A DNA stretch of 57,410 nucleotides from positions 1-57,410 of the IMG/VR virus record IMGVR_UViG_3300006026_000016; one strand, 5' to 3'. Origin of the DNA: a virus. A program made the translations under genes and the position numbers. Positions 5,796-50,768 of this stretch are shown here, piece after piece. The notes beneath the pieces were generated by a model that had not been told where the DNA came from, ran no database searches, and was given only the letters and a program-made list of their open reading frames with translations. Position 1 is the stretch's first letter. Each line of letters opens with the position of its first letter.

Positions 5796-5824
5796 ATTAT
5801 ACCACTTTTTCTGGTTGAAGTCAA
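5796..5824 (-). promoter_or_regulatory. Consensus sigma70-like early promoter (leaderless position)
   Basis: On the minus strand: TTGACT (5824-5819), 17 nt spacer, TATAAT (5801-5796). Exactly 6 nt separate TATAAT from the ATG of the phosphoribosyltransferase, so the predicted +1 is the A of the start codon. It heads the unit holding folE, queE, RNase H and glutaredoxin. Confidence 0.85.
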
Positions 5825-5825
5825 C

Positions 5826-6398
5826 CTATCTTTCAAAATCATTTTCTAATAGGATAAATTCTACTTTATCAAAATCATTTAAGTTAATTTTAGCGGCTTC
5901 TTCAACTATGTTTCTCTTAGTAAACTCTAAAAACAATTTAAGTTCTTTATAGAAACCAGCATCTAATACAGGATTTAACACATCGCTATCTCCTGATATA
6001 TTATATGTTTCGTCAAGTAACTTATTGCTTAGTTTTAAAACAACACCAAATGTCATTTTAAGACCGTCTGCCAGCATATCATCAAAGTCAGTTAGTTTCT
6101 TATATTTAAAAATATATCTGTTTAACATTCTTAAGTAAAATTCTGCAGATATCTCGTCAAGTTGCACTGATATTTTATCAGTATCAAATTCAACTGCTTT
6201 AAACACAGATAAATGACTTTGGTCAAAATCTACGTTATTGCAAAAGAAATGTATAACATCTATTATTTCCTTGTCGGTTATAGGAAATTTCTTTTTAATT
6301 AAATTTAACTCATCGCCTTTACCGATCGCACCCACAACTGCCATAACTGGGGTGCCTGTTCTATTAATAACATTTACAGATTTACGTTTTCCTATCAT
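5826..6398 (-). CDS. Hypothetical protein of 190 residues
   Basis: A predominantly helical acidic protein with an N-terminal basic segment (MIGKRKSVNVINR) and no recognisable catalytic motif. It overlaps the epimerase gene by 4 nt (ATGA) and is the last gene of the unit that starts at 11.7 kb. The early promoter for the next unit begins right at its stop codon. The function is unknown. Confidence 0.75.
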   Translation of the reverse strand: MIGKRKSVNVINRTGTPVMAVVGAIGKGDELNLIKKKFPITDKEIIDVIHFFCNNVDFDQSHLSVFKAVEFDTDKISVQLDEISAEFYLRMLNRYIFKYKKLTDFDDMLADGLKMTFGVVLKLSNKLLDETYNISGDSDVLNPVLDAGFYKELKLFLEFTKRNIVEEAAKINLNDFDKVEFILLENDFER

Positions 6399-7390
6399 TT
6401 ATTCTTAATAACCTTATTTTTATTGTCTACCCAAAACTTAGAATGTGCAAACATATCATCTAATGAATATGTTGGTTCCCAATCTAATAATGTTTTGGCT
6501 TTAGAAATATCTCCACATAAGTACGATGGGTCTCCTGCTCTTCTAGGACCTACTTCATATTTTAAACTTTTTCCAACAACGTTTTGTGCTGAAATTATTA
6601 AATCATGAATACTAAATCCTGTACCAGAGCCTAAGTTTACAATACCACTTTCACCGTCATTGCTTAAATGCTCTACTGCTTTTAGTTTAGCATTTGCTAT
6701 GTCTTGTATATGACAGTAATCTCTAATGCAAGTACCGTCTTTAGTATCGTAATCATCGCCACAAATATTAAATACCTCGTCATTTGTAATTTTATCAATA
6801 ATGATAGGCATTACATGAGTTGCTGGTTCTTGTGTATAACCATTTTTACCTTCTGGGTCTGCACCAGCGGCATTAAAATATCTTGTACTGATATAATTTA
6901 ACCCGTATGCTTTGCTGTAATCTTCTAACATAAGTTCTGTCATGTACTTACTCATTGCATACGGACTCATTGGCATTGGTGTAAGAGTCTCAGCAAATGG
7001 TTCTCTGCTTTCTCTTTCACCATACACACTACTAGAACCGCTAAAGATAAAGTTCTTAACTCCTGCTTTAACACACATATCTAGTAATGTTTGAGTACCT
7101 GACACATTATTTTTATAATACTTGCCAGGATCAATTATACTATCAGGAACAACATGGCTTGCCGCTAAATGAATAACCGCTTGTGGTTTCATCATTTCTA
7201 ATATGCCTGCCGTAGTTGTAGCCTGAAATTCATGTGGAAATAAAGTAGCACCTTCTGGTAATGCCCACTTCCTACTCGTATTGGAATCTATAACAATTAC
7301 GTCATATCCATTGTTAGCAAAAGTTTTACTTACCTGTGCACCAATAAAACCAAGACCACCTGTAATAACAACTGTTGGTTTATCACTCAT
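6395..7390 (-). CDS. galE: UDP-glucose 4-epimerase-like SDR
   Basis: A 331-residue extended short-chain dehydrogenase. The N-terminus has the NAD-binding GGLGFIG motif. SGSSSVYG with the catalytic Ser and YAMSK with the Tyr-Lys pair form the active site, and a C-terminal GSGTGFS/RRAGDPSYL segment binds the nucleotide sugar. Members interconvert UDP-glucose and UDP-galactose or related sugars. A glycosyltransferase and sulfotransferases share its transcription unit, suggesting that modified sugars are made for the phage or the host surface. Another nucleotide-sugar epimerase specificity is possible. Confidence 0.88.
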   Translation of the reverse strand: MSDKPTVVITGGLGFIGAQVSKTFANNGYDVIVIDSNTSRKWALPEGATLFPHEFQATTTAGILEMMKPQAVIHLAASHVVPDSIIDPGKYYKNNVSGTQTLLDMCVKAGVKNFIFSGSSSVYGERESREPFAETLTPMPMSPYAMSKYMTELMLEDYSKAYGLNYISTRYFNAAGADPEGKNGYTQEPATHVMPIIIDKITNDEVFNICGDDYDTKDGTCIRDYCHIQDIANAKLKAVEHLSNDGESGIVNLGSGTGFSIHDLIISAQNVVGKSLKYEVGPRRAGDPSYLCGDISKAKTLLDWEPTYSLDDMFAHSKFWVDNKNKVIKNK

Positions 7391-7547
7391 CTTTATTTTC
7401 CTCCTTTGGATCTAGTAATCCTCCCCAATCTTCTACCTCATCAACAACATCTGTTAAAGATCCTGCTGGTTTGGAGTTAGTAGGTTGAATTACTGTTTCC
7501 TTGTTTCCTCTCTTTTCAGTGAAAGGAATACGTTTAATGTTAGGCAT
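7383..7547 (-). CDS. 54-residue protein, unknown function
   Basis: A small polar protein beginning MPNIKRIPF and ending with an acidic EDWGG...KEENKDE tail. The ATG at 7547 overlaps the upstream histone-like gene by 8 nt. A GTG at 7571 would overlap more and is less likely. It overlaps galE by 8 nt. No family is recognised. Confidence 0.6.
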   Translation of the reverse strand: MPNIKRIPFTEKRGNKETVIQPTNSKPAGSLTDVVDEVEDWGGLLDPKEENKDE

Positions 7548-7722
7548 TATTTTTTGCGTCTTGAATCTCACCTCTTCTAACTTTCGCTAGTTTAGTAATT
7601 TCCATTAATGCCTTCCTTGCTCTTGTTGCCGATGCTTTTACGCCTTGGCCTTCTTTAAATTTTTCGTTTTCACTTACATACTCTTCAAAGAGTGCTTTGA
7701 TTTTTAAATGTGTCTCTGTCAT
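7540..7722 (-). CDS. Histone H1-like (Hc1 family) protein
   Basis: A 60-residue basic helical protein. The core ENEKFKEG...ATRARKALMEITKLAK...RRGEIQ follows the Hc1 pattern of chlamydial and other bacterial histone H1-like proteins, in which a RARKA-L segment is conserved. Hc1 proteins bind and compact DNA. A phage version might act on host nucleoid or phage DNA, but that is inference. It stands between the sulfotransferases and the epimerase in one unit. Confidence 0.65.
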   Translation of the reverse strand: MTETHLKIKALFEEYVSENEKFKEGQGVKASATRARKALMEITKLAKVRRGEIQDAKNNA

Positions 7723-7731
7723 AATTATCTC

Positions 7732-9315: not shown

Positions 9316-9325
9316 ACAATACTCC

Positions 9326-9523
9326 TTATACTATATTTGTTGCCTGTGGTCCTTTCGCACCTTGCTCAACATCAAATGTTACTTCTTGGTTCTCTGATAG
9401 AGATTTATATCCCTCACCTTGTATTGCTGTATGATGTGCAAACACATCTTTACTGCCATCGTCTGGTGTGATAAATCCAAAACCTTTGCTGGTATCAAAC
9501 CATTTTACTTTTCCTGTCGCCAT
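9326..9523 (-). CDS. csp: Cold-shock domain protein
   Basis: A complete 65-residue CspA-type OB fold with KGFGFI (RNP1) and VFAHHTAI (RNP2) single-stranded nucleic-acid-binding motifs and the WFD start typical of the family. It would act as an RNA chaperone or single-stranded DNA binder during infection. It lies 10 nt upstream of the queD-like gene in the same unit. Such genes occur in marine phages and are probably host-derived. Confidence 0.95.
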
Positions 9524-9536
9524 TCTTTCTTCCTCG

Positions 9537-14820: not shown

Positions 14821-17526
14821 TTAATCATTAAAATTAAATAAACTATGGAATGTATTGCTGGTATCTGTTGCTGACAAATCCCATTTAAGTACATTCAATA
14901 AGTTTTCTACTTTCTTATCAACAACTGCTTCTTCCATTGAATCTTCATCAAAGGGTAGTTGTTTAAACCATTCTGGTATATGCATTTCATCTGTTGGATA
15001 TGCAATACTAGTATATCCCATAGCATTACTTTTAAGCCTGCATACAATAACTTTCATACCATCTGTTATTTGCATACTGTATTGATCGCTATTTGCTTTT
15101 AGCATATTATTCCAATTAATACTTGCTCTAACATGCCCGGGGATCATTATTTTCTTTTCGTCTTTGAGTTTTTCTAACTTGTATAAACTAGCACTTTTGT
15201 TCATACTAAATGCTTTATTATATGCTTCTGTGTAGTATGTTAAGTTGTTTACACGTTTTGGCATACCTTTACGCCAAGGGTCCATTGCTTTAAACTCTTT
15301 CTTAAACTCTCTAACATTTGCTAAAACCTTTGTTTCACCATCGCCATTTAGTGTTTGCCCTAATATGTCTGATAAAAAGTCTTGCACAAACTCTGGAGTA
15401 TCTGACCTCTTAAGGTCTAACCCCATTACTTTAAGTTTACCACCTTCGGGTTGATACCCTTCTAAATCTAATACATTAATAGCATATCTTTTCTTTGTAA
15501 TAAAGATGCCGGCTCTACCAACTACTTCTCTGCCGGCTTTAAGTATATTACCTTGGCTAGTTGAAATGTTAAATGAATTTTTTGCAAATAAAGGGAAAGA
15601 ATCACTAACGGTATCTGATATAGTATCATATAATTTAATTGCACTATCCATGTCTAATTCAATGTCTTGCTTTTTACTAATCTCATGAGCACTAAAATAC
15701 ACTGAGTCAGTATCACCATATACTATTGTATCTCCAGTATGATCATACTCGCCTGTGAGCATTTTGTTTGTCTCTGCTCCCATGTGTCTAGTGATTGCAC
15801 GACCAGTAAGTGTAGTACTTTGACCTATCCTGTGGTCAAAGAACCTACTACCTGGATTACAAATAGCACCATATGTACTGTTAAGTAGAATCTTTCTGAC
15901 TAACTGTCGCTTATCCCAAAATGCTATGTCTTCTGGCGTTGTTGCTTTTTTCTTTTTAGCCTGTAACTCTTGTCTTTCTGCATACCATCTCTCCAATAGT
16001 CCTGGTATAATACCTTGTACATCTGTTCTGTATATAGTACCATTTGCACTAATGCACCAAGGCTCATCACTGTTAAACAGCATGTTATATACATCAGCAC
16101 CTTTGACACTAACTTCTCTTTTATCTTCTAAATCTAATATAAGTGGCTTATCAATATCTTTAGCCATTACCATTTCATATTCATTTGTACCGAACTTACC
16201 TGCCCAGGCATCTGCAAATGACTTCTTCTCAATTTGCATTTTTTCTGTAATTTCTTTGTCTGTGTACTCTTGTCTTAGTTGCCCAACAATAGTTTCAGGA
16301 GCCATATTCAGTGCTCTAATAACACTTGGATACAGACTGTTTATATCCATTGATCCTATCCATTCATGCATACCTTTCTTAGGAAATGCCACATAGGCAC
16401 CTGCAACTGTATTCCCCCATGGATTCTCAGAATCTTTGTTTCGCTTTCTATCTGGTATAACCATACCGCGTCTGTGTGCTTCATTGATAATAGCAGAGTC
16501 AATTGTTTGTACCGCTCCCATTGTTACTGGAAGTAATACTGTATTCTGATGAGCAATCTCACTAGCAAGACTAATAAATTGTAACTTGTCGTCTAACTTT
16601 TTAAGTAGCATTGTGTCTTGAATATTGTATTCTAAAAACAATTCAAAGTCATGATTGTAAAGTCTATCAAGCGAACCATCATATACAACCTTCTTTTCAC
16701 CTACTTCCATTTCGCCAATGTAGTCTAGTCTATAACTATGGCGTTCTTCGTAGTTGTATTTTCTATACAGTTGCATATAGTCTAAATGCACACGACCTAC
16801 TAGATCATATGTTTGTGTTTCTCTACCGTGATTGATGTATTCTCTTTTAACAATATTCTTATCAAGTAAACACAGACGCCTTGTTTCGCTTTTACCTAGT
16901 ACTTTGATAATTCTGTTTACGGTATAAGGAATATCATAACCTTCACTGTTCCAACCACTTAGTATATCAGCATCATCAATGAGGCTAAGGAAAGCATCTA
17001 ACATTGCTTTCTCGCCACCAAATAGTATTGTATCGCCTACATTATCTGCAATCTTTTGTGCTTGTTCCCAATTAAGTGTTTTAGGTGGAACTGCTAAACA
17101 TACTATTTTATCCATCCAGTCTAAGTAAACACTGATACTAGTGATAGGCATAAATGCATCTTCAGGAGAACTATAACCTCTTTCAGGGTCAAAGTCTACC
17201 TCAATATCAAAAAAGCATTTGTGTAAGTCTGGTGCATCAACACCCAAGTAATGATCTGCTAATACTCTATTAACAGGCTTTAGGTCGCTTTCGTATGTTT
17301 GTTTGTTTTGATATAGTGCTACATTGCGTTTAAAGTCTTTCCAGTTGTTTGCTGTAATCTTGCTAACTGGGTCACCGAATACACTATGCTGTTTGCCTTT
17401 TGGATCATCTACATAAAAGTAGTACCGCATAGGGTGATCAATGATCTTACGTTCGCCTTCTTTTGTTCGCTCGACTACTCTTACTATGCCTTTGTTCTGT
17501 TCAAAAACTGCGTCAACGTAACTCAT
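14821..17526 (-). CDS. 43: Family B DNA polymerase (gp43-like)
   Basis: A 901-residue replicative polymerase with proofreading, the T4 gp43 size. Exonuclease motifs are CFFDIEVDFDPE (Exo I) and ILSGWNSEGYDIPY (Exo II), with the NIQDT region following. Polymerase motifs are MDINSLYPSVIRALN (motif A), KILLNSTYGA (motif B) and VYGDTDSVY (motif C, with both catalytic Asp residues). It copies the phage genome with the gp45-type clamp. It overlaps the small upstream gene by 14 nt and belongs to the unit driven from 17780-17807. Confidence 0.98.
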   Translation of the reverse strand: MSYVDAVFEQNKGIVRVVERTKEGERKIIDHPMRYYFYVDDPKGKQHSVFGDPVSKITANNWKDFKRNVALYQNKQTYESDLKPVNRVLADHYLGVDAPDLHKCFFDIEVDFDPERGYSSPEDAFMPITSISVYLDWMDKIVCLAVPPKTLNWEQAQKIADNVGDTILFGGEKAMLDAFLSLIDDADILSGWNSEGYDIPYTVNRIIKVLGKSETRRLCLLDKNIVKREYINHGRETQTYDLVGRVHLDYMQLYRKYNYEERHSYRLDYIGEMEVGEKKVVYDGSLDRLYNHDFELFLEYNIQDTMLLKKLDDKLQFISLASEIAHQNTVLLPVTMGAVQTIDSAIINEAHRRGMVIPDRKRNKDSENPWGNTVAGAYVAFPKKGMHEWIGSMDINSLYPSVIRALNMAPETIVGQLRQEYTDKEITEKMQIEKKSFADAWAGKFGTNEYEMVMAKDIDKPLILDLEDKREVSVKGADVYNMLFNSDEPWCISANGTIYRTDVQGIIPGLLERWYAERQELQAKKKKATTPEDIAFWDKRQLVRKILLNSTYGAICNPGSRFFDHRIGQSTTLTGRAITRHMGAETNKMLTGEYDHTGDTIVYGDTDSVYFSAHEISKKQDIELDMDSAIKLYDTISDTVSDSFPLFAKNSFNISTSQGNILKAGREVVGRAGIFITKKRYAINVLDLEGYQPEGGKLKVMGLDLKRSDTPEFVQDFLSDILGQTLNGDGETKVLANVREFKKEFKAMDPWRKGMPKRVNNLTYYTEAYNKAFSMNKSASLYKLEKLKDEKKIMIPGHVRASINWNNMLKANSDQYSMQITDGMKVIVCRLKSNAMGYTSIAYPTDEMHIPEWFKQLPFDEDSMEEAVVDKKVENLLNVLKWDLSATDTSNTFHSLFNFND

Positions 17527-17773
17527 TTAATTTGTCCGAATATTTTAACATAAATTTATATTTGCTTGCCTCTGTTATAAACTTTGCATATACTTTTGCA
17601 ACTGGTTTATAACTGCTTTCAAAGTCTACTTCTTTAGAAAAGGTTGCTTCTTCACCAAATGCAAAGAAAGGAATCATTGTGTCATGCAACCTATCTTCAA
17701 AGATGTGCTCATAATCAGCATCATCTGTCCATTGCATGTCAAATAAATATACCTTTTCTATAGTCAGACTCAT
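17513..17773 (-). CDS. Hypothetical protein preceding DNA polymerase
   Basis: An 86-residue acidic protein with aromatic-rich segments (YLFDMQWTDDADYEHIFEDRLHD). It overlaps the polymerase start by 14 nt and is the first gene after the promoter at 17780-17807. It could be a polymerase-associated factor, but no family is recognised. Confidence 0.75.
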   Translation of the reverse strand: MSLTIEKVYLFDMQWTDDADYEHIFEDRLHDTMIPFFAFGEEATFSKEVDFESSYKPVAKVYAKFITEASKYKFMLKYSDKLNELR

Positions 17774-17779: not shown

Positions 17780-17807
17780 AGTATAACAGATAGAACTATA
17801 TTGTCAA
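17780..17807 (-). promoter_or_regulatory. Sigma70-like early promoter for the replication unit
   Basis: On the minus strand: TTGACA (17807-17802), 16 nt spacer, TATACT (17785-17780). The -10 box starts 7 nt before the ATG at 17773, so here too the transcript would begin at or next to the start codon. It is slightly less perfect than the other early promoters. Confidence 0.7.
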
Positions 17808-18819: not shown

Positions 18820-20901
18820 CTAACTTATGACTGCTCTGTCTGTTACTCTTCTCCAGTTAGTGCCATCACTAAATGCCATTACTGGACCCCCTGTGTCATT
18901 GGTTACATAAATCATATGCCCAATGTATGCAGATGCATCAGGTACTGATAGTACTGCATATCGTGGAAACTCAACTGGTCCTCCACTTGTTTCAACTACA
19001 CCGTAATCACTATTTACTAATGCTACAACGGTATCAGTTAATAAACCGTAGTCGATTGTGTTTGTTGTTGAACTAGTAATCAATCCGTAATCGCTTACTG
19101 TTTCAAATATAGGCGATGATACAATACTTGCATCAACTTCACCGAATGTTAAATTGCCAGTAAGTTTCGCATCTATGGCACTATTTGCTCTAGCATCAGT
19201 GTAGTAAAGATTAGTTGAACCTTCTTTGATATCATCTGAATCTTGTGTTGCTAATACAGAAGTAACTCTAGCATCAGTGTAGTATAAATTTGTTGAACCT
19301 TCTGATAAATCGTCTGAATTGTTATCATCTAAATCAACTTTTACTCCACTTTCTGATTTTGTATCTTTGGCTAATGCTTTTTGCTCAAACTTACCGCCTG
19401 CTCCTTTTCTCAAAACAACTTTGTCGTTGCCTGTTCCTAATTCAATTTCATCTACAACAAGTTTTCTTTTAATACTGGTGTTTGCACTATCTGAGAAATC
19501 TATTTCATTATCTGATGTCACACTAATTGCTGTTGTGCCTATATTGATAGTACTACCACTTAGGTATAAATCATTAAATCTGTTTGAACTTGTTCCTAAA
19601 TCGTAAACTTCGTTTGCTGTGGGAACAATATTACCTGTTATGCTTACATCTTTTACACTGAATGTGGTTCCTTGTTTTCTTGTAACCAATACCATGTCAT
19701 TAGCAGTATATCCTGTATCAACACTGGATTGCTCACTGTTTACAACTGTGTTCACAGTTACATTGTCTTTTTGTGAACTGGCTCTTGGAATAACTTCCAT
19801 ATCAATTGTAACAGACCCATAAATTGTGCCTAATGTTTTGAATGCAAAAATAAATCCTGCTGTGGTTGTTTCTTTGGTCCACAGTTGAGGATCTATATAT
19901 CTAGCACCATTGTATTCTTCATCATAGGTTATAGTCCAGTTGAGATCTGGTAACGTGTTACTTCTCAATGCGGCATTAAAATAAACTGTGTGAGTTTCAC
20001 CAGCATTTTGAGCCGTCATACGACCAACCACTTGATAGTTCTGGCTGGCACCACTTGGTATAATTGTTACTACTTTTTGATATTCACCATTACTAAAGTA
20101 ACTACCATTTGAAGCACCAGTGTATCTCTGGTTAAACTTCATTATGTTTGAATTTTGGAATTCAACAGTATTGTATGTTGCTGTTCCTGTGATGCTTAAA
20201 TCTGTAAATTCATTTGAGAATGTTAAGCCACCACTGCCATCAGTTTGTAAAAACTGTCCAGCAGTACCATCTGATGTTGGCATAGTGTAAGAGCCGTTTA
20301 CAATTAGTGTGTTTGCTCTAACAACATTAGGTGCTCCATTGGGTGCTATACTTCCTGTTACATTACCACTTAGGTTACCAACAAAAGCACCAGCACTAAA
20401 TGTTTGACCATTAACTGTCCATTCGCCTTCATCTTCGTCCCAACGAAGGTACACATTACTTTCGTTACCTCTGTTTACTAATATTCCTGCGTTAGCAGTT
20501 GCGGGTTGGTTGGAAGGAAGGTCGCTGTTTAAAACTATTTCATTGTCAGCAATATTGAGAGTTTCTGTATTGATTATAGATTGAGTACCGTTTACAATTA
20601 AATTACCTGTTATGGTAACATCATTTGTAAACGTATTATCTGTATCGACTCTGGCAAAACTTGTACTATTGATACCATCTAGTGTATCAGCATCGCCTAC
20701 AGTTAGTTTGCTCCATGCTACAGAACCTTCACTTACCGTTGCAATTTTTATTAGTGTATTGCTTGAATCGAACCAAAGATCACCTGTCGAGATATTATTG
20801 ACGTCACTGGGTGCGTCAGATGTCCCGTACAGTCTAGAACCGCGTTTGCCTATTCTAAAACTGCTTTGCGAGGTACCTTTGGCATTCATTATGATTGCCA
20901 T
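18820..20901 (-). CDS. Virion surface / tail-fibre-like protein
   Basis: A 693-residue beta-rich protein, Ser/Thr/Asn/Gly-rich, with typical marine T4-like fibre modules. These include DVTITGNLIVNGT...NTETLNIADNEIVLNSDL, the tandem repeat EGSTNLYYTDARV/EGSTNLYYTDARA near residues 545-590, and a C-terminal VTNDTGGPVMAFSDGTNWRRV segment. It probably forms part of a trimeric fibre or whisker. The 590-residue protein at 23816-25588 shares the ITGDLTVNGS...IADSLLELA module, so the two are paralogous. It is expressed from the late promoter at 20987-20995 through a structured leader. Confidence 0.8.
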   Translation of the reverse strand: MAIIMNAKGTSQSSFRIGKRGSRLYGTSDAPSDVNNISTGDLWFDSSNTLIKIATVSEGSVAWSKLTVGDADTLDGINSTSFARVDTDNTFTNDVTITGNLIVNGTQSIINTETLNIADNEIVLNSDLPSNQPATANAGILVNRGNESNVYLRWDEDEGEWTVNGQTFSAGAFVGNLSGNVTGSIAPNGAPNVVRANTLIVNGSYTMPTSDGTAGQFLQTDGSGGLTFSNEFTDLSITGTATYNTVEFQNSNIMKFNQRYTGASNGSYFSNGEYQKVVTIIPSGASQNYQVVGRMTAQNAGETHTVYFNAALRSNTLPDLNWTITYDEEYNGARYIDPQLWTKETTTAGFIFAFKTLGTIYGSVTIDMEVIPRASSQKDNVTVNTVVNSEQSSVDTGYTANDMVLVTRKQGTTFSVKDVSITGNIVPTANEVYDLGTSSNRFNDLYLSGSTINIGTTAISVTSDNEIDFSDSANTSIKRKLVVDEIELGTGNDKVVLRKGAGGKFEQKALAKDTKSESGVKVDLDDNNSDDLSEGSTNLYYTDARVTSVLATQDSDDIKEGSTNLYYTDARANSAIDAKLTGNLTFGEVDASIVSSPIFETVSDYGLITSSTTNTIDYGLLTDTVVALVNSDYGVVETSGGPVEFPRYAVLSVPDASAYIGHMIYVTNDTGGPVMAFSDGTNWRRVTDRAVIS

Positions 20902-20986: not shown

Positions 20987-20995
20987 ATATTTATC
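20987..20995 (-). promoter_or_regulatory. Late promoter (minus) of a divergent pair
   Basis: On the minus strand this reads GATAAATAT, 86 nt upstream of the fibre gene start at 20901. It is one arm of a 9 bp inverted repeat whose other arm is the plus-strand late promoter at 21001-21008. Confidence 0.75.
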
Positions 20996-21000: not shown

Positions 21001-21008
21001 TATAAATA
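21001..21008 (+). promoter_or_regulatory. Late promoter (plus) TATAAATA, leaderless position
   Basis: A perfect TATAAATA followed by exactly 5 nt and the ATG at 21014. With T4 late-promoter spacing, transcription would begin at the A of the start codon. Confidence 0.75.
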
Positions 21009-21013: not shown

Positions 21014-21682
21014 ATGAGTACAGAATATACTAAATGGACTGTAGATAGGATACTTGATACAGCACCAATAGAAACAGACAAACTACATGTAATGGATGTT
21101 GATAACTTTATGCATCCAGATTTGTACGCACAGGTACAAAATTGCATACCATGGAATAATTGGCAAAACGAAGAATTACCAGGCAGACACGGCTATCATA
21201 TTAGTCCAGATGAATCGCAAGAAGCATTACAAATAGCCACAGAATATGTATATAATAACCAAGAGGTTTTAGATGCAATAGGTAATGTTATGAATATGTC
21301 AAGTAATGTAAACATTAATCAACCTTTTATGTGGATGGACACAAACAAAAATTCTGTTCATGATGTGCATGTAGACCACCCTTCCTATTATTATACAGTT
21401 CAGCATTCATTAGCAGACAACGATGAATTTGCACATACTGGTACAATGTTTTGGGAGGTTGATTGTGCGTATGATCGGGCAATCGATGAAGGTCTAGATC
21501 CAACTTTTGGAGAAGACAGTACATTAGTACGAATGGGGCACCAAATGCCTTACATACCTAATAGGGCATATATACTACCAAGAAGCAGTAAAGGTTGGCA
21601 TAGTTGTCCGGACCTAACAGTAGAGCCAGATACTATGCAAAGGGTTATGGTTTATTTAATTGCTACTCTTAGGAAAACTTAA
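21014..21682 (+). CDS. 2-oxoglutarate/Fe(II) oxygenase-like protein
   Basis: A 222-residue protein, one of the few plus-strand genes. VHDVHVDHPSYYYTVQHSL holds a candidate H-x-D iron-binding motif. The downstream GWHSCPDL provides a possible distal His, and DTMQRVMVYLIA a following Arg for 2-oxoglutarate. This matches the double-stranded beta-helix oxygenase order but with low overall similarity. The substrate is unknown. The gene converges with the minus-strand gene at 21669 (14 nt overlap) and is transcribed from its own late promoter, apparently as a leaderless mRNA. Confidence 0.55.
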   Translation: MSTEYTKWTVDRILDTAPIETDKLHVMDVDNFMHPDLYAQVQNCIPWNNWQNEELPGRHGYHISPDESQEALQIATEYVYNNQEVLDAIGNVMNMSSNVNINQPFMWMDTNKNSVHDVHVDHPSYYYTVQHSLADNDEFAHTGTMFWEVDCAYDRAIDEGLDPTFGEDSTLVRMGHQMPYIPNRAYILPRSSKGWHSCPDLTVEPDTMQRVMVYLIATLRKT

Positions 21683-23089: not shown

Positions 23090-23118
23090 ATTATAGCAAA
23101 TTATAGGGTCGAGGTCAA
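23090..23118 (-). promoter_or_regulatory. Consensus sigma70-like early promoter
   Basis: On the minus strand: TTGACC (23118-23113), 17 nt spacer, TATAAT (23095-23090). The -35 box overlaps the end of the nucleotidase gene. The predicted leader is about 35 nt and contains a strong AGGAGG ribosome site. Confidence 0.85.
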
Positions 23119-23711
23119 CCTTTATCTACAATTAAATTGTATATTTCTTCCCAAGTTTTGCATACATTTGCAGTACCATCATAGTGCATATTGTGTCCAT
23201 GCTCAACTAAGATACCTTTTAGACCGGCATCAATACCCCAATCTACGTTCTGTGGTTTGTCTTCTATCCAGTATGCTCCTGGATACTTTTTACCAAATTC
23301 TAACAGTATTTGGTCTTTGTCTGCGCCTGTGTCTAAACAAATAACTTCTTTAAAACAGTCATCACCAAACAGTTTATTTAAGTTCTTAGTTCTAAGTTCT
23401 TGTGCGTAAGGGTCTAAACTCAAACTTGTAATTGCTACAAATTGATATTGATGTTGCTCGTGTAACTTCTTAACAAAGTATTGAGCATCACGAAGTGGAG
23501 GAAGAAATCCTATTGCCGCACTTTCATTAAAGTTTTTAATTACTTGATCACCAGTAGAGTCGTTTCTTAGATCAAACTTTTCTCTAATGCTGTAATGTAA
23601 CCTGTGATTTTCTACTGGAAAGTGTCCTCTGTGTTCCATCCAATTATGGAATGCAAACTCCCAGTCCAATACTACGCCATCGCAATCTGTTAATATAATT
23701 TTATTTTTCAT
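23115..23711 (-). CDS. HAD-family 5'-nucleotidase-like phosphatase
   Basis: A 198-residue haloacid dehalogenase-type hydrolase. Motif I is LTDCDGVVLDW (nucleophile and acid Asp), motif II is VAITSLS, and motif IV is YWIEDKPQN with the metal-binding acidic pair. The size and cap layout resemble 5'(3')-deoxyribonucleotidases, so it may trim nucleotide pools during infection. The frame is open five codons further, but the ATG at 23711 starts the domain and sits exactly 6 nt after the TATAAT box, so the mRNA appears leaderless. Confidence 0.8.
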   Translation of the reverse strand: MKNKIILTDCDGVVLDWEFAFHNWMEHRGHFPVENHRLHYSIREKFDLRNDSTGDQVIKNFNESAAIGFLPPLRDAQYFVKKLHEQHQYQFVAITSLSLDPYAQELRTKNLNKLFGDDCFKEVICLDTGADKDQILLEFGKKYPGAYWIEDKPQNVDWGIDAGLKGILVEHGHNMHYDGTANVCKTWEEIYNLIVDKG

Positions 23712-23717: not shown

Positions 23718-23746
23718 ATTATACATTCTTTTATCCTCTGTGTCAA
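23718..23746 (-). promoter_or_regulatory. Perfect sigma70-like early promoter (leaderless position)
   Basis: On the minus strand: TTGACA (23746-23741), 17 nt spacer, TATAAT (23723-23718), then 6 nt and the ATG at 23711. It lies directly after the terminator at 23753-23778, which insulates it from the fibre unit. Confidence 0.9.
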
Positions 23747-25684: not shown

Positions 25685-25693
25685 GTATTTATC
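25685..25693 (-). promoter_or_regulatory. Late promoter GATAAATAC
   Basis: On the minus strand, GATAAATAC lies 96 nt upstream of the fibre ATG at 25588, within the 157 nt gap 25589-25745. The rest of the gap holds the untranslated leader with a CAGGGAG ribosome site and no gene. Confidence 0.8.
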
Positions 25694-31307: not shown

Positions 31308-31316
31308 GTATTTATC
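31308..31316 (-). promoter_or_regulatory. Late promoter GATAAATAC for the collagen-like gene
   Basis: On the minus strand, GATAAATAC with the core ending 31 nt before the ATG at 31277. The short inverted repeat ATCAAC/GTTGAT (31314-31328) directly after the preceding stop codon overlaps the promoter. Confidence 0.8.
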
Positions 31317-35840: not shown

Positions 35841-36644
35841 TTAATTGTTTCTCCTGCGTTCTTGTTTAATTCTTTGTATAAGATGAACATGCTCATGACT
35901 CAATGAATCAGGTGGCATAACTTCTACTTGTAATAAAAAGTTACCAACTATGCTACTGCGAGGATCTGTAAATCCTTCCCCTCTAAGTTTCAGTCTGCTA
36001 TTTGGTTCAGTAAGTGGCGGTATATGAACTGCCAACATTCTTCCGCTAATGTGCCTAACATCTATAGTTGCACCAGTTAATGCATCAAGGTAATCTATTT
36101 GTATAATACCAATAAGATCATTTCCGTTTTTTGCAAATTCTGGATGTGGTCGATATCTTACTCTTATAAATAAATCACCTGGCGGCAGGTTTGGGTCTTG
36201 CTGTGGACCTTTGCCGTGTACAGTAAACCGTGTACCTTCTTGTACACCTTTTGGTATTTTTAAATCTAACATACCAGTGCCTACATTGATTCGTTGTGTG
36301 GAACCGTTATATACATCTTCTAATGATAATAGTATATCAGTTTGTGCATCAAAATTTTGCTCTCTGCGTTGTTGTCCTCTTTGTCCAAATATATCTCTAA
36401 ATATTTCTTCAAAACGAGTGCCTGCGCCAAAGCCTTGTCCAAAACCTTCAAAAGGATTAGGATTATCATACTGATTACGTTTGTTTGGGTCACTAAGTGT
36501 ATCGTATGCTTCTTGTACTCTTTTGAATTCCTCTGGATTACCACCTTTGTCAGGATGATGCTTACTTGCTAATTTGCGATATGCTTTTTTGATAGTGGAG
36601 GCGTCAGCATCGCGGCCTACCCCCAATGTTTGGTAGTGATCCAT
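35841..36644 (-). CDS. DnaJ/CbpA-like Hsp40 co-chaperone
   Basis: A 267-residue Hsp40. The J-domain is complete ([16 protein letters not shown] with the HPD tripeptide at about residues 29-32), followed by a Gly/Phe-rich linker ([12 protein letters not shown]) and two beta-rich C-terminal substrate-binding domains. There is no zinc finger, as in CbpA/class B proteins. It would stimulate host DnaK. The consensus promoter upstream places the predicted transcription start on the A of this ATG. Confidence 0.92.
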
Positions 36645-36650: not shown

Positions 36651-36679
36651 ATTATACAGAGATATGACAGGAATGTCAA
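36651..36679 (-). promoter_or_regulatory. Perfect sigma70-like early promoter (leaderless position)
   Basis: On the minus strand: TTGACA (36679-36674), 17 nt spacer, TATAAT (36656-36651), then exactly 6 nt before the ATG of dnaJ at 36644. It drives the DnaJ-ClpA-SGNH-lysozyme unit. Confidence 0.9.
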
Positions 36680-37761: not shown

Positions 37762-38513
37762 ATTTTCCTCAATAATAAAACATCATCGCTACCTTCTTTA
37801 GAAAGTGTAAATCTACCTTCGCTAAAATTGTTGACTACATATGATTTGCCAATTGCATCAGCAAATGCTAAGTCATCACTTAACATACTTCTAATAGGTT
37901 CTGACGAAATGTCTTCTAATATATCTTTTTGACCAAAGTTGACTAATTCAAATTCAAATACTCTCTTGCCTCTTTGAAATTGTATTCTATCTTTATCTGT
38001 GTCTTTATCTAAATTAACGTTTGACATCAAACTGTCAATTAAAAAGTTTCCTAAGTTTTCTTTATACTCGCTTTCTTGTGCTTCAACTTTATTTTGTTGA
38101 AATGTTTTTTTATCTACATACATATCTGGGTCCACTATTACAAAACTTTTCCATGTATCTTCGTGTAGTTTAAAGTCTTCATCTGCATAGTATGGCTTTA
38201 CAGTCCATGCTAGTTTACCAGACAAGTTCTCTACATCATGTAAAATTTTATCTATTTTTTCAAAGACTTGGTTGTCTCTTTTCATTTCTACAAACACCAT
38301 GTAGTGTCCGTCATCGTTTGCGGCTGGGGAAGCCTCGCAATCTAATGTTTCATATGCACCTGACTCTACAAAGTTTGATAAGTCTTTAGCAGGAGCCAAA
38401 TCGTCTACATAAAACCCCACTACAATTACATCTTTATTATCACCTGTCTTTGGTGAAAATTCATCTAAACTGATTTTAGGAATAACTAGATCGACAAGGT
38501 CGTGATGTTTCAT
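37758..38513 (-). CDS. Conserved phage protein, unknown function
   Basis: A 251-residue acidic protein of mixed alpha/beta content (VIVVGFYVDDLAPAKDLSNF, HYMVFVEMKRDNQVFEKI, KSFVIVDPDMYVDKK). It overlaps the ACP-like gene by 4 nt and the upstream gene by one base and is transcribed late. A virion or assembly role is suggested by timing and neighbours only. Confidence 0.75.
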   Translation of the reverse strand: MKHHDLVDLVIPKISLDEFSPKTGDNKDVIVVGFYVDDLAPAKDLSNFVESGAYETLDCEASPAANDDGHYMVFVEMKRDNQVFEKIDKILHDVENLSGKLAWTVKPYYADEDFKLHEDTWKSFVIVDPDMYVDKKTFQQNKVEAQESEYKENLGNFLIDSLMSNVNLDKDTDKDRIQFQRGKRVFEFELVNFGQKDILEDISSEPIRSMLSDDLAFADAIGKSYVVNNFSEGRFTLSKEGSDDVLLLRKI

Positions 38514-39076
38514 TATACGCCGCCTCCTAGTGGATCTGCTGGCATTTCTGCTGGCATTGGTGCAGTTGGATCAACTCCTTGTTGCAACATTGCACCTGCT
38601 TCGGCATCCTGTGTAGATATTACTTCGTCGTTCATTTTAGTTTCTGCTTCATCATAATGCTCTAAATACTTTCTTGGCACTCGTAATTCAACTAACCATA
38701 CAGGATCGCTTTCTGTTTTAGTTTTTCTGTAGACCCTATTGCGTGTGATTTCAACTTCTATATCGTCTGGACTCATAATCTTTTTAGGATATTCAAATAC
38801 ATCTTCATTGAACTTAACTTGACATTTTTTGTTAGTTAATCGCAATGCACCTTCTGGATCTGGCATTTCTGCTTTGTCGTACATTAGTGTTAGGTCAATC
38901 CAGTATTTACTAGGACGGCCTACTTCAACTATCTTACCCTTTTTCCAGTTCTTAAATGCATAAATACCTAGGTGCTCAAAGAGTCCGTCTAGTTCTAGTA
39001 GCATATCAAGAAGTGTTCTATCTTGGTTAATAGCCTTTATGGTATTATTGATATCTTCTGAAGTATATTTTGACAT
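38513..39076 (-). CDS. Conserved T4-like marine phage protein, probable virion component
   Basis: A 187-residue protein whose central part (YAFKNWKKGKIVEVG...YWIDLTLMYDKAEMPDPEGALRL) and late WLVELRVPRKYLEHYDEA segment look like a protein conserved in cyanophage-type myoviruses, but I cannot name it. The C-terminus is Pro/Ala/Met-rich and flexible. The open frame begins at a TTG at 39091, but the ATG at 39076 fits the domain start and lies exactly 5 nt after the late promoter core, implying a leaderless mRNA. Confidence 0.75.
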   Translation of the reverse strand: MSKYTSEDINNTIKAINQDRTLLDMLLELDGLFEHLGIYAFKNWKKGKIVEVGRPSKYWIDLTLMYDKAEMPDPEGALRLTNKKCQVKFNEDVFEYPKKIMSPDDIEVEITRNRVYRKTKTESDPVWLVELRVPRKYLEHYDEAETKMNDEVISTQDAEAGAMLQQGVDPTAPMPAEMPADPLGGGV

Positions 39077-39080: not shown

Positions 39081-39089
39081 GTATTTATC
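39081..39089 (-). promoter_or_regulatory. Late promoter GATAAATAC (leaderless position)
   Basis: On the minus strand the ATAAATA core ends at 39082, exactly 5 nt before the ATG at 39076. It drives the unit of two conserved phage proteins, the ACP-like protein and both spanins. Confidence 0.8.
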
Positions 39090-41378: not shown

Positions 41379-42172
41379 CTTAACTTCTTATTTTTGCTAA
41401 CTGCTTTTTCTAACAGAGATAGTTTGATATTTTTACCTTGTGCATAATTAATCAATGCTTCTGTATCCTTAGGAAAACAATGGCCACCAAAACCATGCTC
41501 GCCATCAGTACCGGGTACTTTCATATGACTGTTGCCCATACGTGGATCTCTAGTTAGCATATCTGTAAACTGGTCCCAACTTACCATACTACTACTTGCT
41601 TGTTGTAGGTTGTACAGTTCATTAAAGAAAACAACCTTAGTTGCTAACCAACTATTAATAGTGTACTTGATCAAACTTGCAGTACTCAGGTCTACTTTGA
41701 ATGTCGGAACCACTCTCACGTTGCTATACCTATTGTAGGCTTTTTCAACTGTGTCGCAGTCTTTCCATTTCCCTCCGAGTACTTGCATGTTTGGATTCAC
41801 AAAGTCTTGTGATGCATTTGCTTCAGTAAGAAACTCTGGGTTATAAACTATTTTTAATTTATAACTCTTTTTGAATACATGTAAGTAGTCAGGTATAATT
41901 GTGCTTTTAACAACAACTATACCTTTGTACTCACAATCGTTTAATTCCTGCAGAACGTTAGTAACAATGTCTACATTAACACTCCCATCTTCGTTGGGTG
42001 GCGTTGGAACACAAACGAAAGTAAGTGGTGGATCAAAGTCATTGACAAGTTTATCAATTGTGTTGTCCTCTGAAATTTTAGGATCCACCACGTACTGTTC
42101 TATTTTGGAAAAGCCATCGCTGACAGCACTTCCTACAAAACCTTTGCCTATTATTCCTATACTATACTTCAT
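41375..42172 (-). CDS. UDP-glucose/GDP-mannose dehydrogenase-like protein, short form
   Basis: A 265-residue protein with the N-terminal NAD-binding domain (GIIGKGFVGSAV), the VCVPTPPNEDGSV motif, VVKSTI, NPEFLTEANA and GFGGHCFPKD with the catalytic Cys, all of UDP-glucose 6-dehydrogenases. The C-terminal nucleotide-sugar domain (about 120-150 residues) is missing, so the substrate or activity may differ. It overlaps the radical SAM gene by 11 nt and sufE by 4 nt. Confidence 0.85.
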   Translation of the reverse strand: MKYSIGIIGKGFVGSAVSDGFSKIEQYVVDPKISEDNTIDKLVNDFDPPLTFVCVPTPPNEDGSVNVDIVTNVLQELNDCEYKGIVVVKSTIIPDYLHVFKKSYKLKIVYNPEFLTEANASQDFVNPNMQVLGGKWKDCDTVEKAYNRYSNVRVVPTFKVDLSTASLIKYTINSWLATKVVFFNELYNLQQASSSMVSWDQFTDMLTRDPRMGNSHMKVPGTDGEHGFGGHCFPKDTEALINYAQGKNIKLSLLEKAVSKNKKLR

Positions 42173-43703
42173 TAAGTAACCAATTTAATTTTTTATTTAC
42201 ATATCTATTTACTGTTTGATCTGTAATAAAAGTTGCTTTTTGAACTAGACCTAATCCTGACAGAGTTTCTTTTTGCTCATACCAGTCGTTTCTTGATGAG
42301 GCTATGCCTTGTGACATAACACTTTGCCAAGTAAATGCTTCAATGTGATTTGTTATAACATTTCTTTTTTGTATTGCTTTTGAGAATATGTCAGTGCGTT
42401 CTTTTGCTTCTGATTTGTTAGTGTATTCGTTTGACCATTCTAATGTATTTTCGTCTATGGTGTAACCAAATCTTTCTGGGTATATATCTATATCAGCAAA
42501 GGCACCTTCGTCCCATGCTAACCATTCTCCACCAAAGTCCTTGTAGCCAGGATGATTCTTTTTAGGCTCAATTATTAATGTTATTGTACCAGCATTATCA
42601 ACAAGTAAATTGTCTTCACAGTATCTTAAATTTTTTTCAAACTCTGCGTAACTGTCGTTTGCTAATCCAAATATAAAACCTGAACTAATCCAAAAGTCAT
42701 CTATTTCTTTTCTTAACCTTTGAGAAACATACACAAGATCTTCTATTGTGCTTTTCTTTCTTGTGGCTTTTATTGCGGTATTACCAAAACTTTCTATACC
42801 AAAGTTAGCACCATTCATTCCAATTTCTTTATACAAATCTATCTGGTGAGGTCTTTTTGCCATAACATCAAGTCTAGCAAAAGATGTTATTCTAGGTTTA
42901 AAACTTAATCTATTAACAACTTTAGCAAGTAACTCTAGTTTTTCATCTGATTCATTAAGTGTATCATCTGCGGCATAGAAATGTGTAATTCCGTATGTAT
43001 CGTATGCATGTTGCATTGTGTAATAAAGTTGCTCTTCGCAATTCATATAAAGAGTCTTAGATGCTCGTAAAGGATAATTGCAAAAACTACAATTAAATTT
43101 ACAGCCTAGTGCAACTTCAAATCCTATCACATCAGTGGATTCTAAGAAGTCGTCTTCTTTGAATAAACCATATGTTATGGGTTTCTCTATATCATAATTA
43201 TAATTATGGTTAGCAAAAATGTTTGTAAACTCTGGATTTTGTACAAACCTTGACATGTCTTTTCCAGCAACAAAATCTGTTAGCATTTCAGTACATCTAC
43301 CTAAGAAAACACCATCACAGTATTTCATATAGTCCATGTCATTGCGTTGTACTCTTCTATTGCCTCCATATAATATTTTTGCATTAGGTAGTTTGCTTTT
43401 AATTTGTCGAGCAAGTTGAATATACTCTTTTTCTAAACCCATAGATAGTGTAGCACTTATACATATAAACTGTACTTCTGAGTTACGAAAATAATTTATT
43501 ATACCTTTGATTAAATCTTCTTTATCAAAATGAAAACAATAATCTATAACAGTTGCCTCTACACCTAACTTTTCAAACTCATGTTTAATAACATGGGCAC
43601 CCAACGATCTGTAATTTGCTGGGAATGTAGAACGAATTATTTCTTTAGATATTCTTGGTTTTTGTTTGTTAGATTCAGATATAACAACGGCTTTGTTTTT
43701 CAT
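42162..43703 (-). CDS. B12-binding-type radical SAM protein
   Basis: A 513-residue enzyme. Residues about 1-150 are a Rossmann-like B12-binding-type domain (GAHVIKHEFEKLGVEATVIDY, VQFICISATLSMG, AKILYGGNRRV) but lack the classic DxHxxG motif, so cobalamin binding is unsure. The radical SAM core follows with GCKFNCSFCNYPLRAS (CX3CX2C). FYAADDTLNES and FGIESFGN are typical of this superfamily. Substrates in the family include lipids, tetrapyrroles, peptides and sugars. It is the first gene of a late unit and its ATG lies 5 nt after the ATAAATA core. Confidence 0.85.
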   Translation of the reverse strand: MKNKAVVISESNKQKPRISKEIIRSTFPANYRSLGAHVIKHEFEKLGVEATVIDYCFHFDKEDLIKGIINYFRNSEVQFICISATLSMGLEKEYIQLARQIKSKLPNAKILYGGNRRVQRNDMDYMKYCDGVFLGRCTEMLTDFVAGKDMSRFVQNPEFTNIFANHNYNYDIEKPITYGLFKEDDFLESTDVIGFEVALGCKFNCSFCNYPLRASKTLYMNCEEQLYYTMQHAYDTYGITHFYAADDTLNESDEKLELLAKVVNRLSFKPRITSFARLDVMAKRPHQIDLYKEIGMNGANFGIESFGNTAIKATRKKSTIEDLVYVSQRLRKEIDDFWISSGFIFGLANDSYAEFEKNLRYCEDNLLVDNAGTITLIIEPKKNHPGYKDFGGEWLAWDEGAFADIDIYPERFGYTIDENTLEWSNEYTNKSEAKERTDIFSKAIQKRNVITNHIEAFTWQSVMSQGIASSRNDWYEQKETLSGLGLVQKATFITDQTVNRYVNKKLNWLLNEV

Positions 43704-43708: not shown

Positions 43709-43716
43709 TATTTATT
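43709..43716 (-). promoter_or_regulatory. Late promoter AATAAATA (leaderless position)
   Basis: On the minus strand, AATAAATA with the core ending exactly 5 nt before the ATG at 43703, inside the short gap after the clamp-loader stop. It drives the radical SAM to SDR unit. Confidence 0.7.
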
Positions 43717-44874: not shown

Positions 44875-44891
44875 ATGCATTCCTTTTGTGT

Positions 44892-44920
44892 ATTATAAAC
44901 TATTTGTGGAGAGAAGTCAA
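44892..44920 (-). promoter_or_regulatory. Consensus sigma70-like early promoter for the clamp loader
   Basis: On the minus strand: TTGACT (44920-44915), 17 nt spacer, TATAAT (44897-44892). It occupies the 40 nt gap between the sulfotransferase stop and the small gene before gp44. Confidence 0.85.
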
Positions 44921-49176: not shown

Positions 49177-49204
49177 ATAGATATCTTTTGTTATTGTGGT
49201 GTAA

Positions 49205-49534
49205 TTATTTCTTGTTGTTATATACATAATGTTGTGCTAATAATTTTGTAATTGCTGTTTGTCTTAATTCTTCTTTAACTTCTTCTGGTACAGGATCAGG
49301 TTGCACTTGCATTTCACCTTCGCCTATTTCGTACACACCAACACCTTCTTCAATATCTTTTTTAGCCATTGCTAATTGCATACGTTCTCTATATTCAAAA
49401 TTTGCTTCGTTAATATATTCTTCTAATTGCCTAAATGCAGGATAGTTTGGATTTGCAGTTAGCAACTTCTTAGACAACGTATCAATATGGTTAAGAAGTG
49501 CTTCGTCATCGTAGTTACTAAAATCGTTAAACAT
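49205..49534 (-). CDS. Hypothetical acidic helical protein
   Basis: A 109-residue protein starting MFNDFSNYDDEALLNHIDTL, with two long helices and an acidic loop (EVKEELRQT). It overlaps the upstream gene by 8 nt. The function is unknown. Confidence 0.7.
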   Translation of the reverse strand: MFNDFSNYDDEALLNHIDTLSKKLLTANPNYPAFRQLEEYINEANFEYRERMQLAMAKKDIEEGVGVYEIGEGEMQVQPDPVPEEVKEELRQTAITKLLAQHYVYNNKK

Positions 49535-49817
49535 TCTTTACCTTTAGTAGATACTTGTAGTAATCTTTTTTGTTCTTAAAACCTATTTGTCTTCCTCTAA
49601 TCATTACATTATATATCTTTAACTTTTCTTTTTTACAAAACTCTCTTGATAAATGTTTGTGTTCATTACTATTTATGGGGGCCTTGTACTCAAAGGACTC
49701 CCATAGTGATATCATTCCAGCGGTACGCTCTTCAAGTGTAGCATCTAATTTACCAAAGATAATATTGCTTTCTTCGTCAGAGTAAACTTGACTCAGTTGT
49801 TTCGTAAAATTTGTCAT
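49527..49817 (-). CDS. Hypothetical 96-residue protein
   Basis: A small basic protein. The N-terminal half (MTNFTKQLSQVYSDEESNIIFGKLDA) is helical and the C-terminal part KNKKDYYKYLLKVKNV is Lys-rich. It overlaps the VOC-like gene by 41 nt, the largest overlap in this unit. No family is recognised. Confidence 0.65.
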   Translation of the reverse strand: MTNFTKQLSQVYSDEESNIIFGKLDATLEERTAGMISLWESFEYKAPINSNEHKHLSREFCKKEKLKIYNVMIRGRQIGFKNKKDYYKYLLKVKNV

Positions 49818-50610
49818 AGTTAGTTTGACTCAATGTATTAAATGCAAAACGTTGGCTAAAGATCATGTCTAAGTTTGGTAAGGCATTCTTAACACAAAAC
49901 TCAATAGCAAAATTTTGATTCCGGCCTCCTATAGATAGTTGGTAATTATTAATAATACTTTCTGTAAATCCTGCAGGTAATTTGTAATTATTTAACTTTG
50001 ATCTACCTGGATTGACTATGTTATAGTCTTCAAAAGACAGTTGTGACCTAAGGTGTTTAATGTCCCTTACGCCTACATACGCCGTCTGTAACGCATTATA
50101 ATCTGCCTCTACGAACTTGATAATGCTTCTGTTGTTAGGACTTGTTAAAAGGGTGTATTTTTCCTCTTGTTCCTGGATTTGCCATTCCCAATTAGACATA
50201 TAAAAGTTTATAGTTTCTTCCATATTATTTGTATGATACACTAGACCATAAAAATTAATTAGTTCACTTGGAGTAACTTGACGAACATTTTTTCTATCGA
50301 AGGAGTCATTAAGATATGATTCCATTGCATGTTCGCCGGCAACTGTTAATGAAAAACCATTTGGATCTTCTAATTCTTGGAACCCATCGGGTTCATCACT
50401 GTAAAATCCTAATCCATATATACCACTGCTTTCATTTATAACTGTTTTTACATGCAGTATTACGCCACCAGCGGTATGCCAAGATGATATATCTTCCAAA
50501 CTTTCGTTTGCTTGTCTAAAGCCTAGTGATAAAAAGTTGTCAAATATGTCAGGATCTTGTATTGAATTTTTATATTTTAAGAATGTTAGATCAATCGATG
50601 GTTTTGTCAT
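49777..50610 (-). CDS. VOC/glyoxalase-fold-like protein
   Basis: A 277-residue protein. The middle (LINFYGLVYHTNNMEETINFYMSNWEWQIQEQEEKYTLLTSPNN...IIKFVEAD) has the beta-alpha-beta-beta-beta pattern of vicinal-oxygen-chelate domains, and the N-terminal third may be a second diverged copy. Metal ligands are not certain (H151 and E183 are candidates). The ATG at 50610 is preferred because GGAG lies 7 nt upstream; the longer frame to 50679 overlaps the preceding small gene further. The substrate is unknown. Confidence 0.5.
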   Translation of the reverse strand: MTKPSIDLTFLKYKNSIQDPDIFDNFLSLGFRQANESLEDISSWHTAGGVILHVKTVINESSGIYGLGFYSDEPDGFQELEDPNGFSLTVAGEHAMESYLNDSFDRKNVRQVTPSELINFYGLVYHTNNMEETINFYMSNWEWQIQEQEEKYTLLTSPNNRSIIKFVEADYNALQTAYVGVRDIKHLRSQLSFEDYNIVNPGRSKLNNYKLPAGFTESIINNYQLSIGGRNQNFAIEFCVKNALPNLDMIFSQRFAFNTLSQTNYDKFYETTESSLL

Positions 50611-50755
50611 TGTCCTGCTCCTCAGCAGTATCGCAAGACTGGCAACATTCTGGTGTTCCGCATTTGTCATGGAGCACACCGTCTTCGTCGTAGCCTTCTT
50701 TGTTTACTTTCTTAGGTGTATAGATTTTTGGTTGAAATTCTTTTAATTGGTCCAT
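50591..50755 (-). CDS. 54-residue Cys-containing protein
   Basis: A small acidic protein (MDQLKEFQPKIYTPKKVNKEG...) with a compact Cys cluster CGTPECCQSC (residues 32-41), a likely zinc or metal site. The start codon at 50755 lies exactly 5 nt after the ATAAATA core at 50761-50767, and its stop overlaps the VOC-like gene by 20 nt. The gene is real by position although short. The function is unknown. Confidence 0.75.
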   Translation of the reverse strand: MDQLKEFQPKIYTPKKVNKEGYDEDGVLHDKCGTPECCQSCDTAEEQDNDKTID

Positions 50756-50760
50756 ACAGA

Positions 50761-50768
50761 TATTTATC
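50761..50768 (-). promoter_or_regulatory. Late promoter GATAAATA (leaderless position)
   Basis: On the minus strand, GATAAATA followed by 5 nt and the ATG at 50755. It drives a long late unit (50755 to 44921) that includes the GroES-like protein and the second sulfotransferase pair. Confidence 0.8.

Follow-up and report, generated by a model that had tools for sequence, protein, structure and literature searches.

The virus record IMGVR_UViG_3300006026_000016 from IMG/VR (57,410 bases, 35.7% G+C; hereafter the window, meaning the whole stretch analysed) contains eight genes whose start codon lies at a fixed distance from a promoter, four of them behind late boxes of the bacteriophage T4 type and four behind sigma70-type promoters. 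At these distances transcription is predicted to begin on the A of the ATG, and we consider it likely, with a probability of roughly 0.86, that both promoter classes, sigma70 and gp55-type, yield genuine leaderless mRNAs. The DNA polymerase of the window matches phrog_262 across almost its full length, and by this PolB match the large marine phage from which the window comes is a member of the T4 superfamily. The nearest cultured polymerases are those of two jumbo phages, Sinorhizobium phage Phosso (48.7% amino acid identity) and Agrobacterium phage Atu_ph07 (43.7%). A search of IMG/VR for relatives of the window found 108 stretches, from which 79 loci were kept, about twenty of them at 90-100% identity.

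Promoter spacing in the window

The original prediction listed four late promoters with exactly 5 nucleotides (nt) between ATAAATA and ATG (at 21014 on the plus strand and at 39076, 43703 and 50755 on the minus strand) and three early promoters with exactly 6 nt between TATAAT and ATG (5789, 23711 and 36644, all on the minus strand), and all seven are present as described. A -35 element, TTGACT or TTGACA, lies exactly 17 nt upstream of TATAAT at each of the three early sites. We identified an eighth site that had been overlooked, at 17773 on the minus strand, reading TTGACA, 16 nt, TATACT, 6 nt and ATG. The sigma70 consensus (TTGACA, 16-18 nt, TATAAT) is thus found at all four early sites, one having the 16-nt spacer and TATACT and another TTGACT. 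The late sites resemble the T4-type box TATAAATA, with ATAAATA at all four; the 8-mer opens with T at 21014 and with G or A at the remaining three. Coordinates are collected in Table 1.

Spacer lengths were also counted across the whole window, a check named in the original prediction, by taking for each promoter the nearest ATG within 45 nt that opens an open reading frame (ORF) of at least 40 amino acids. Exactly 5 nt follows four of the 11 late boxes, the remaining spacings being 10, 15, 22, 22, 25, 31 and 42 nt, and exactly 6 nt follows four of the 15 sigma70-like promoters, with none at 2-5 or 7-10 nt. Under a flat distribution over 46 values, the binomial probabilities are 6.5e-5 for the late and 2.5e-4 for the sigma70-like promoters. 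ATAAATA occurs 28 times in the window in total. The eight sites are more than chance would give, and a fixed distance between the -10 element and ATG is commoner than chance in the window and in other genomes.

Both distances point to a start on the A. For sigma70, six bases between the -10 hexamer and +1 is the usual distance. The first of the eight bases of the T4 late box is numbered -13, according to an excerpt of PMC2988020; ATAAATA then ends at -6, and a 5-nt spacing therefore puts +1 on the A of the ATG. Late promoters with leaders, examined in the window and in comparison genomes chosen by hand, offer a separate view of this position. Of the twelve bases past ATAAATA, the sixth is richest in purines in T4 (24/32), Melnitz (20/20), Syn9 (19/20) and comparison genome G009 (11/12), and purines are frequent there in Mosig as well (20/24). 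The purine excess at the predicted +1 is clear in five of eleven genomes.

Not all late genes of the window share this geometry. At six of the 11 late boxes the ATG follows after 15-42 nt, and five of these six genes have a Shine-Dalgarno (SD) core. Because several late boxes open ordinary SD leaders, the leaderless genes would form one of two late classes. SD cores are likewise common among leadered late genes of the comparison genomes G002 (6/6), G004 (7/7), HTVC008M (6/7), T4 (23/32) and Mosig (13/24), and are few in the cyanophages P-SSM2 (5/38), Syn9 (4/20) and S-SKS1 (4/33). An SD core also precedes about 41% of the 68 ORFs called in the window. A wholesale escape from SD-dependent control is not supported, given this figure and the SD-led late genes. 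In the measured leaders of Lactococcus cremoris, as far as an excerpt of PMC10986495 reports them, genes are either leaderless or leadered and none has a leader of 4-14 nt, which resembles the gap here between the 5-nt and the long spacings. Tandem late boxes at 25692 and 25710 on the minus strand, 18 nt apart, precede the ATG of a 590-amino acid ORF (23816-25588) by about 100 nt; a leader from there would be unusually long.

Table 1. Promoters and genes with predicted leaderless starts in the window, with three late boxes that precede leaders for contrast
Feature	Position	Strand	Remark
T4-type late box TATAAATA	21001..21008	+	5 nt before ATG 21014; divergent from minus-strand box at 20994
ORF, 222 amino acids, predicted leaderless late mRNA	21014..21682	+	
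Late box ATAAATA	39082..39088	-	5 nt before ATG 39076
Virion structural protein (phrog_12928), predicted leaderless late mRNA	38513..39076	-	
Late box ATAAATA	43709..43715	-	5 nt before ATG 43703
Radical SAM protein, sub-threshold B12-binding match, 513 amino acids, predicted leaderless late mRNA	42162..43703	-	
Late box ATAAATA	50761..50767	-	5 nt before ATG 50755
ORF, 54 amino acids, predicted leaderless	50591..50755	-	overlaps 300-amino acid ORF 49777-50679
Contrast late box	55966..55972	-	25-nt spacer, SD (AGGAG), ATG 55940
Contrast late box ATAAATACTATT	55118..55124	-	22-nt spacer, SD, ATG 55095
Contrast late box	31309..31315	-	31-nt spacer, SD-like AGGA, ATG 31277 (tail fibre gene)
Sigma70-type promoter TTGACT-17-TATAAT	5796..5824	-	6 nt before ATG 5789
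Phosphoribosyltransferase-domain protein, predicted leaderless early mRNA	5301..5789	-	
Sigma70-type promoter TTGACA-16-TATACT	17780..17807	-	6 nt before ATG 17773
ORF, 86 amino acids, predicted leaderless early mRNA	17513..17773	-	adjoins DNA polymerase gene
Sigma70-type promoter TTGACA-17-TATAAT	23718..23746	-	6 nt before ATG 23711
NT5C-like nucleotidase (PF06941 just below cut-off; phrog_420), predicted leaderless early mRNA	23115..23711	-	
Sigma70-type promoter TTGACA-17-TATAAT	36651..36679	-	6 nt before ATG 36644
DnaJ-like chaperone, predicted leaderless early mRNA	35841..36644	-	

The late boxes at 20994 (minus strand) and 21001 (plus strand) stand back to back, the minus-strand box lying about 90 nt before a 693-amino acid ORF (18820-20901). 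The 54-amino acid ORF overlaps the 5' end of the 300-amino acid ORF in another frame, and by eye the longer ORF has no clear ribosome-binding site.

Recurrence and conservation in other phages

The same late spacing recurs in the comparison genomes, counted as in the window with a minimum ORF length of 40 amino acids, and its peaks are a single base wide. Exactly 5 nt is found in G002 (8/16), G004 (8/18), HTVC008M (9/19), Mosig (7/35), Melnitz (3/26), G009 (2/17) and P-SSM2 (2/41), four of the eight sites in both G002 and G004 being the window's own four genes again; it is absent from T4 (0/32), Syn9 (0/22) and S-SKS1 (0/34). When 21 permutations of ATAAATA were compared, the real one gave 8 sites in G002 and 9 in HTVC008M, with a mean of 0.20 for the other twenty, and in Melnitz it gave 3 with a best other permutation of 1. 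One-base variants of the box gave at most 3 sites per genome at spacing 5, and the analysis was therefore confined to ATAAATA. All nine HTVC008M sites are annotated coding sequence starts, including those of the DNA end protector gp2, baseplate wedge, tail tube cap, tape measure, CsgF and a 2OG-Fe(II) oxygenase, as are seven of eight in Mosig. The nine HTVC008M start codons lie at 6280, 7562, 19456, 31132, 49760, 75559 and 142360, and at 16007 and 18916 on the minus strand. The exact pattern was not clearly above its reversed control in Salicola phage SCTP-2 (10 vs 8) or Agrobacterium phage Atu_ph07 (5 vs 2).

The exact pattern was matched 56 times in 17 of 21 IMG/VR relatives, vs 6 times for the reversed pattern, several of these contigs overlapping in content. 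Pattern scans, each a sample of 119-120 stretches, were counted by nearest ATG with duplicates dropped, leaving out loci already retrieved (L094 from the count of one pattern, and L082, L084 and L519 from that of another). Exactly 5 nt followed ATAAATACTATT in 15/49 cases (15/54 when every ATG was counted) and TATAAATAGTA in 17/68, and TTGACA-17-TATAAT gave 14/86 at 6 nt and 10/86 at 7 nt, with a second broad group at 21-30 nt. Among 80 PolB-related loci, a smaller peak at 7 nt (5/51), which would mean a two-base leader, accompanies that at 5 nt (8/51). TTGACA-17-TATAAT-6/7-ATG stands before 24 of 86 ORFs of viral contigs (L633-L733), one of which resembles a clamp loader by eye; to judge by such arrangements, early leaderless genes may be common in the phages these contigs come from.

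Possible hosts were scanned as well. An exact TTGACA-16/18-TATAAT before an ATG at the leaderless distance was not found in four Pelagibacteraceae (SAR11) and two Albidovulum genomes; a TTGAC version gave 0 matches vs 6 in the reversed control in the four SAR11 genomes, and a loose TTGA version 39 vs 53. As these counts are not above control, they say nothing on leaderless use by the host.

Close relatives mostly retain the spacing, with exceptions, even as nearby bases change. The box at 21014 and its spacing are kept in L005, L014, L015 and L020 (84-100% amino acid identity), with the five spacer bases themselves unchanged at 84%, and box and spacing are kept in L204 and L209 both at 39076 (97% and 90%) and at 43703 (100% and 95%). 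Even the 54-amino acid ORF at 50755 retains promoter and spacing in two close relatives, L205 and L210 (96% and 91%). The 5789 promoter is kept in L002, L208 and L017 (85-100%), although the six spacer bases differ at 87% and 85% identity, and 23711 has 6 nt with changed bases in L015 (86%). At 17773 a spacing of 6-7 nt is kept in L002, L009, L011, L013, L014 and L015 (70-100%), still holding at 70-76% identity. TTGACA-17-TATAAT-6-ATG appears again at the 42%-identical orthologue of 36644 in G009 (L253).

Two virion genes extend the comparison to more distant phages. The gp2 orthologues of HTVC008M, Mosig, Melnitz and contigs L193 and L198 all have ATAAATA-5-ATG, the others being 32-39% identical to HTVC008M gp2; L193 is not an unbiased case, since it was retrieved through that very site, whereas L198 was retrieved otherwise. 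For T4 gp2, no such box was seen within the 40 nt shown. The notion that leaderless mRNAs are used deliberately has support if read as selection, to which the spacing common to these divergent orthologues points. With gp25 the picture is mixed: leaderless spacing in HTVC008M, L101 and L198 (the latter two retrieved through that site); in Mosig the spacing is 8 nt, in Melnitz the gene has a leader with an SD, and P-SSM2 and S-SKS1 have longer leaders. A gene can therefore change class.

Proposed mechanism and alternative explanations

In the mechanism that we propose, host RNA polymerase with sigma70 would start early genes on the A of the start codon, the -10 element lying 6 nt upstream of the ATG. 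For late genes it would use a T4 gp55-type sigma instead and start on the A from a box 5 nt upstream. We infer both the use of gp55 by the window phage and the real 5' ends. Translation would then begin at the 5'-terminal AUG without an SD sequence, the mode of ribosome binding being likewise a supposition. Leaderless and SD-led late genes would exist side by side, with selection holding the leaderless spacing exact. A gp55-type sigma is found in 11 of 27 records searched, namely five PolB-related contigs (G011, G013, G014, G020 and G021), Phosso, Atu_ph07, T4, HTVC008M, Mosig and Melnitz, the Phosso and Atu_ph07 matches having stops inside the matched frame.

Several observations weigh against leaderless transcription. 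No gp55 was detected in the window or its closest relatives, all of which are fragments. The window, G002, G004, HTVC008M, P-SSM2 and S-SKS1 show a weak or flat purine peak at +1, their counts being small or nearly even. The permutation test is less decisive in Mosig, where the real motif gave 7 sites and the best other permutation 4 (mean 1.05); ATAAATA, with 2 sites, is outdone in P-SSM2 by another permutation, with 3. The eighth Mosig site, at 73459, is not an annotated start, and the Mosig annotation is not fully independent because the Mosig paper, in the excerpt of PMC7892664, cites a gene finder in which leaderless starts are modelled. The first scrambled control for the IMG/VR samples, ATTAACATTATA, gave 6/24 at 6 nt (L437, L449, L455, L465, L481 and L498), perhaps another promoter-like leaderless arrangement. 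This scramble has a TATA-like end, which makes it a poor control, and a second was therefore used; that one was flat, no spacing up to 6 nt exceeding 4/55 and the maximum being 6 at 15 nt. Given the peak in the first control, the case rests on the per-genome counts, and the IMG/VR samples are weaker evidence.

Conservation also has its gaps. The 39076 orthologue in G009 (L253, 36% identical) appears to be leadered with an SD; the 5789 promoter was not seen at the matching start in L023 (35%) or L068 (27%), nor the 23711 promoter at L023 (62%) or L027 (60%). The spacing is 8 nt in the 36644 relative L209 (80%), and 6 and 8 nt in the gp2 relatives L089 and L199. The distant orthologues that lack the arrangement slightly lower our confidence in the leaderless reading. 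Its core, with +1 on the A in both promoter classes, is nonetheless well supported by the statistics of the spacing, by its conservation in close relatives and its recurrence in cultured T4-like phages, and by the purine excess in some of the genomes.

Among other explanations, the one that survives best, although we think it quite unlikely, is that these genes are translated mainly from readthrough mRNAs coupled to the upstream gene, the leaderless transcript being a minor by-product. The genes at 43703 and 50755 would suit it, as they follow a same-strand upstream ORF within about 11 and 20 nt, but those at 21014 and 39076 are divergently oriented and have no adjacent same-strand upstream gene.

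It is also conceivable, though very unlikely, that the promoters are real and the true starts lie downstream, in which case the genes would have leaders of the usual kind and the upstream ATG would belong to the tail of the promoter. Start choice is generally uncertain here, because 39076 and 23711 are not the starts of their longest frames, and for four of the eight genes (17773, 21014, 43703 and 50755) no informative protein match was found at the start to fix it. For the other four (5789, 23711, 36644 and 39076), PHROG matches begin at or next to the promoter-adjacent ATG. ATG 39076 lies 15 nt inside a TTG-started frame and is favoured by position 4 of the phrog_12928 profile, which aligns at residue 7; ATG 23711 is the second ATG of its frame, and the phrog_420 match begins at that ATG, residue 6 of the longer frame. 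An SD-bearing in-frame restart within 90 nt is found in only 1 of 39 ATAAATA-5-ATG ORFs from six genomes and in none of the four late ORFs of the window, and in gp2 the alignment between HTVC008M and Mosig reaches the first residue. Coincidence through compact packing, with short intergenic spaces and no selection for +1 on the A, seems far-fetched: space is indeed tight where 43703 and 50755 closely follow an upstream ORF, but packing would spread the spacings, whereas G002 and HTVC008M have their peak at 5 nt and none at 0-4 or 6 nt, T4 has none at 5 nt, and the 5-nt spacing is kept in close relatives and gp2 orthologues.

Besides leaderless transcription itself, we considered a role for the ribosome. 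The ribosomal protein bS21 is encoded in 8 of 38 records (HTVC008M, Mosig, Melnitz, G020 and the four jumbo phages Phosso, Atu_ph07, SCTP-2 and Vibrio phage 2.275.O), among them the cultured phages with an excess at 5 nt (HTVC008M and Mosig; weakly, Melnitz). It was not found in T4, KVP40, GAP32, phiM12, Cr30, DLP_6, P-SSM2, Syn9 or S-SKS1, nor in the window contig or its close relatives. No ATAAATA-5-ATG site was found in Phosso or Vibrio phage 2.275.O although both encode bS21, which weighs against a link. As a cause of the leaderless spacing, bS21 was thus set aside, the association being loose and a lead at most. A broader scheme, in which marine T4-superfamily phages would combine a leaderless late programme for core virion genes with a phage bS21, so that phage-modified ribosomes favour leaderless phage messages late in infection, we regard as unlikely. 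The bS21 of HTVC008M (91228-91431, L258) is nearest to Albidovulum and Pelagibacteraceae proteins (54-57%) among 80 genome loci kept.

Relation to known systems

Leaderless mRNAs are known from lambda cI and from actinobacterial genes, and those of mycobacteria are reportedly the subject of a published study. Phage transcripts "are often leaderless" in the words of an excerpt of PMC5312081. Among the matches listed for the openly licensed PMC literature, seen in part, no report of leaderless late genes in T4-like phages was found, nor any mention of the 5-nt geometry in HTVC008M and Mosig. The papers on Melnitz (PMC9004378) and Mosig (PMC7892664) have the word leaderless only in a reference title, and it is absent from the excerpt of PMC9723584, on phage bS21 and late replication. 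The apparent novelty is that T4-type late promoters are paired with predicted leaderless starts, alongside late genes led by an SD, both in SAR11 phages and in relatives of jumbo phages.

Should this hold, programs that predict gene starts from ribosome-binding sites may place them wrongly in these phages, and naturally occurring pairs of leadered and leaderless genes, such as those of gp25, would allow us to ask why leaderless translation is chosen. Among the closest parallels to the window are the T4-like Pelagibacter phages HTVC008M and Mosig, which infect SAR11 hosts and have ATAAATA-5-ATG at 9 and 7 annotated gene starts. These phages differ from the window in having genomes of 141-147 kb and in being only distantly related to it.

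The late promoters of T4 (TATAAATA, with gp55, gp33 and gp45) have the same box and the same predicted distance from box to +1, and a gp55-type sigma is present in five PolB-related contigs. T4 differs in that its late genes are leadered, with all 32 spacers at 12-35 nt and most with an SD core. T4 late transcription is a textbook system with leadered messages, and here the same type of promoter has apparently been moved base-exactly onto start codons. Like known leaderless mRNAs, the messages predicted here would begin with AUG and have no SD; unlike them, they would share a phage-specific late promoter with a parallel leadered class and recur in virion genes.

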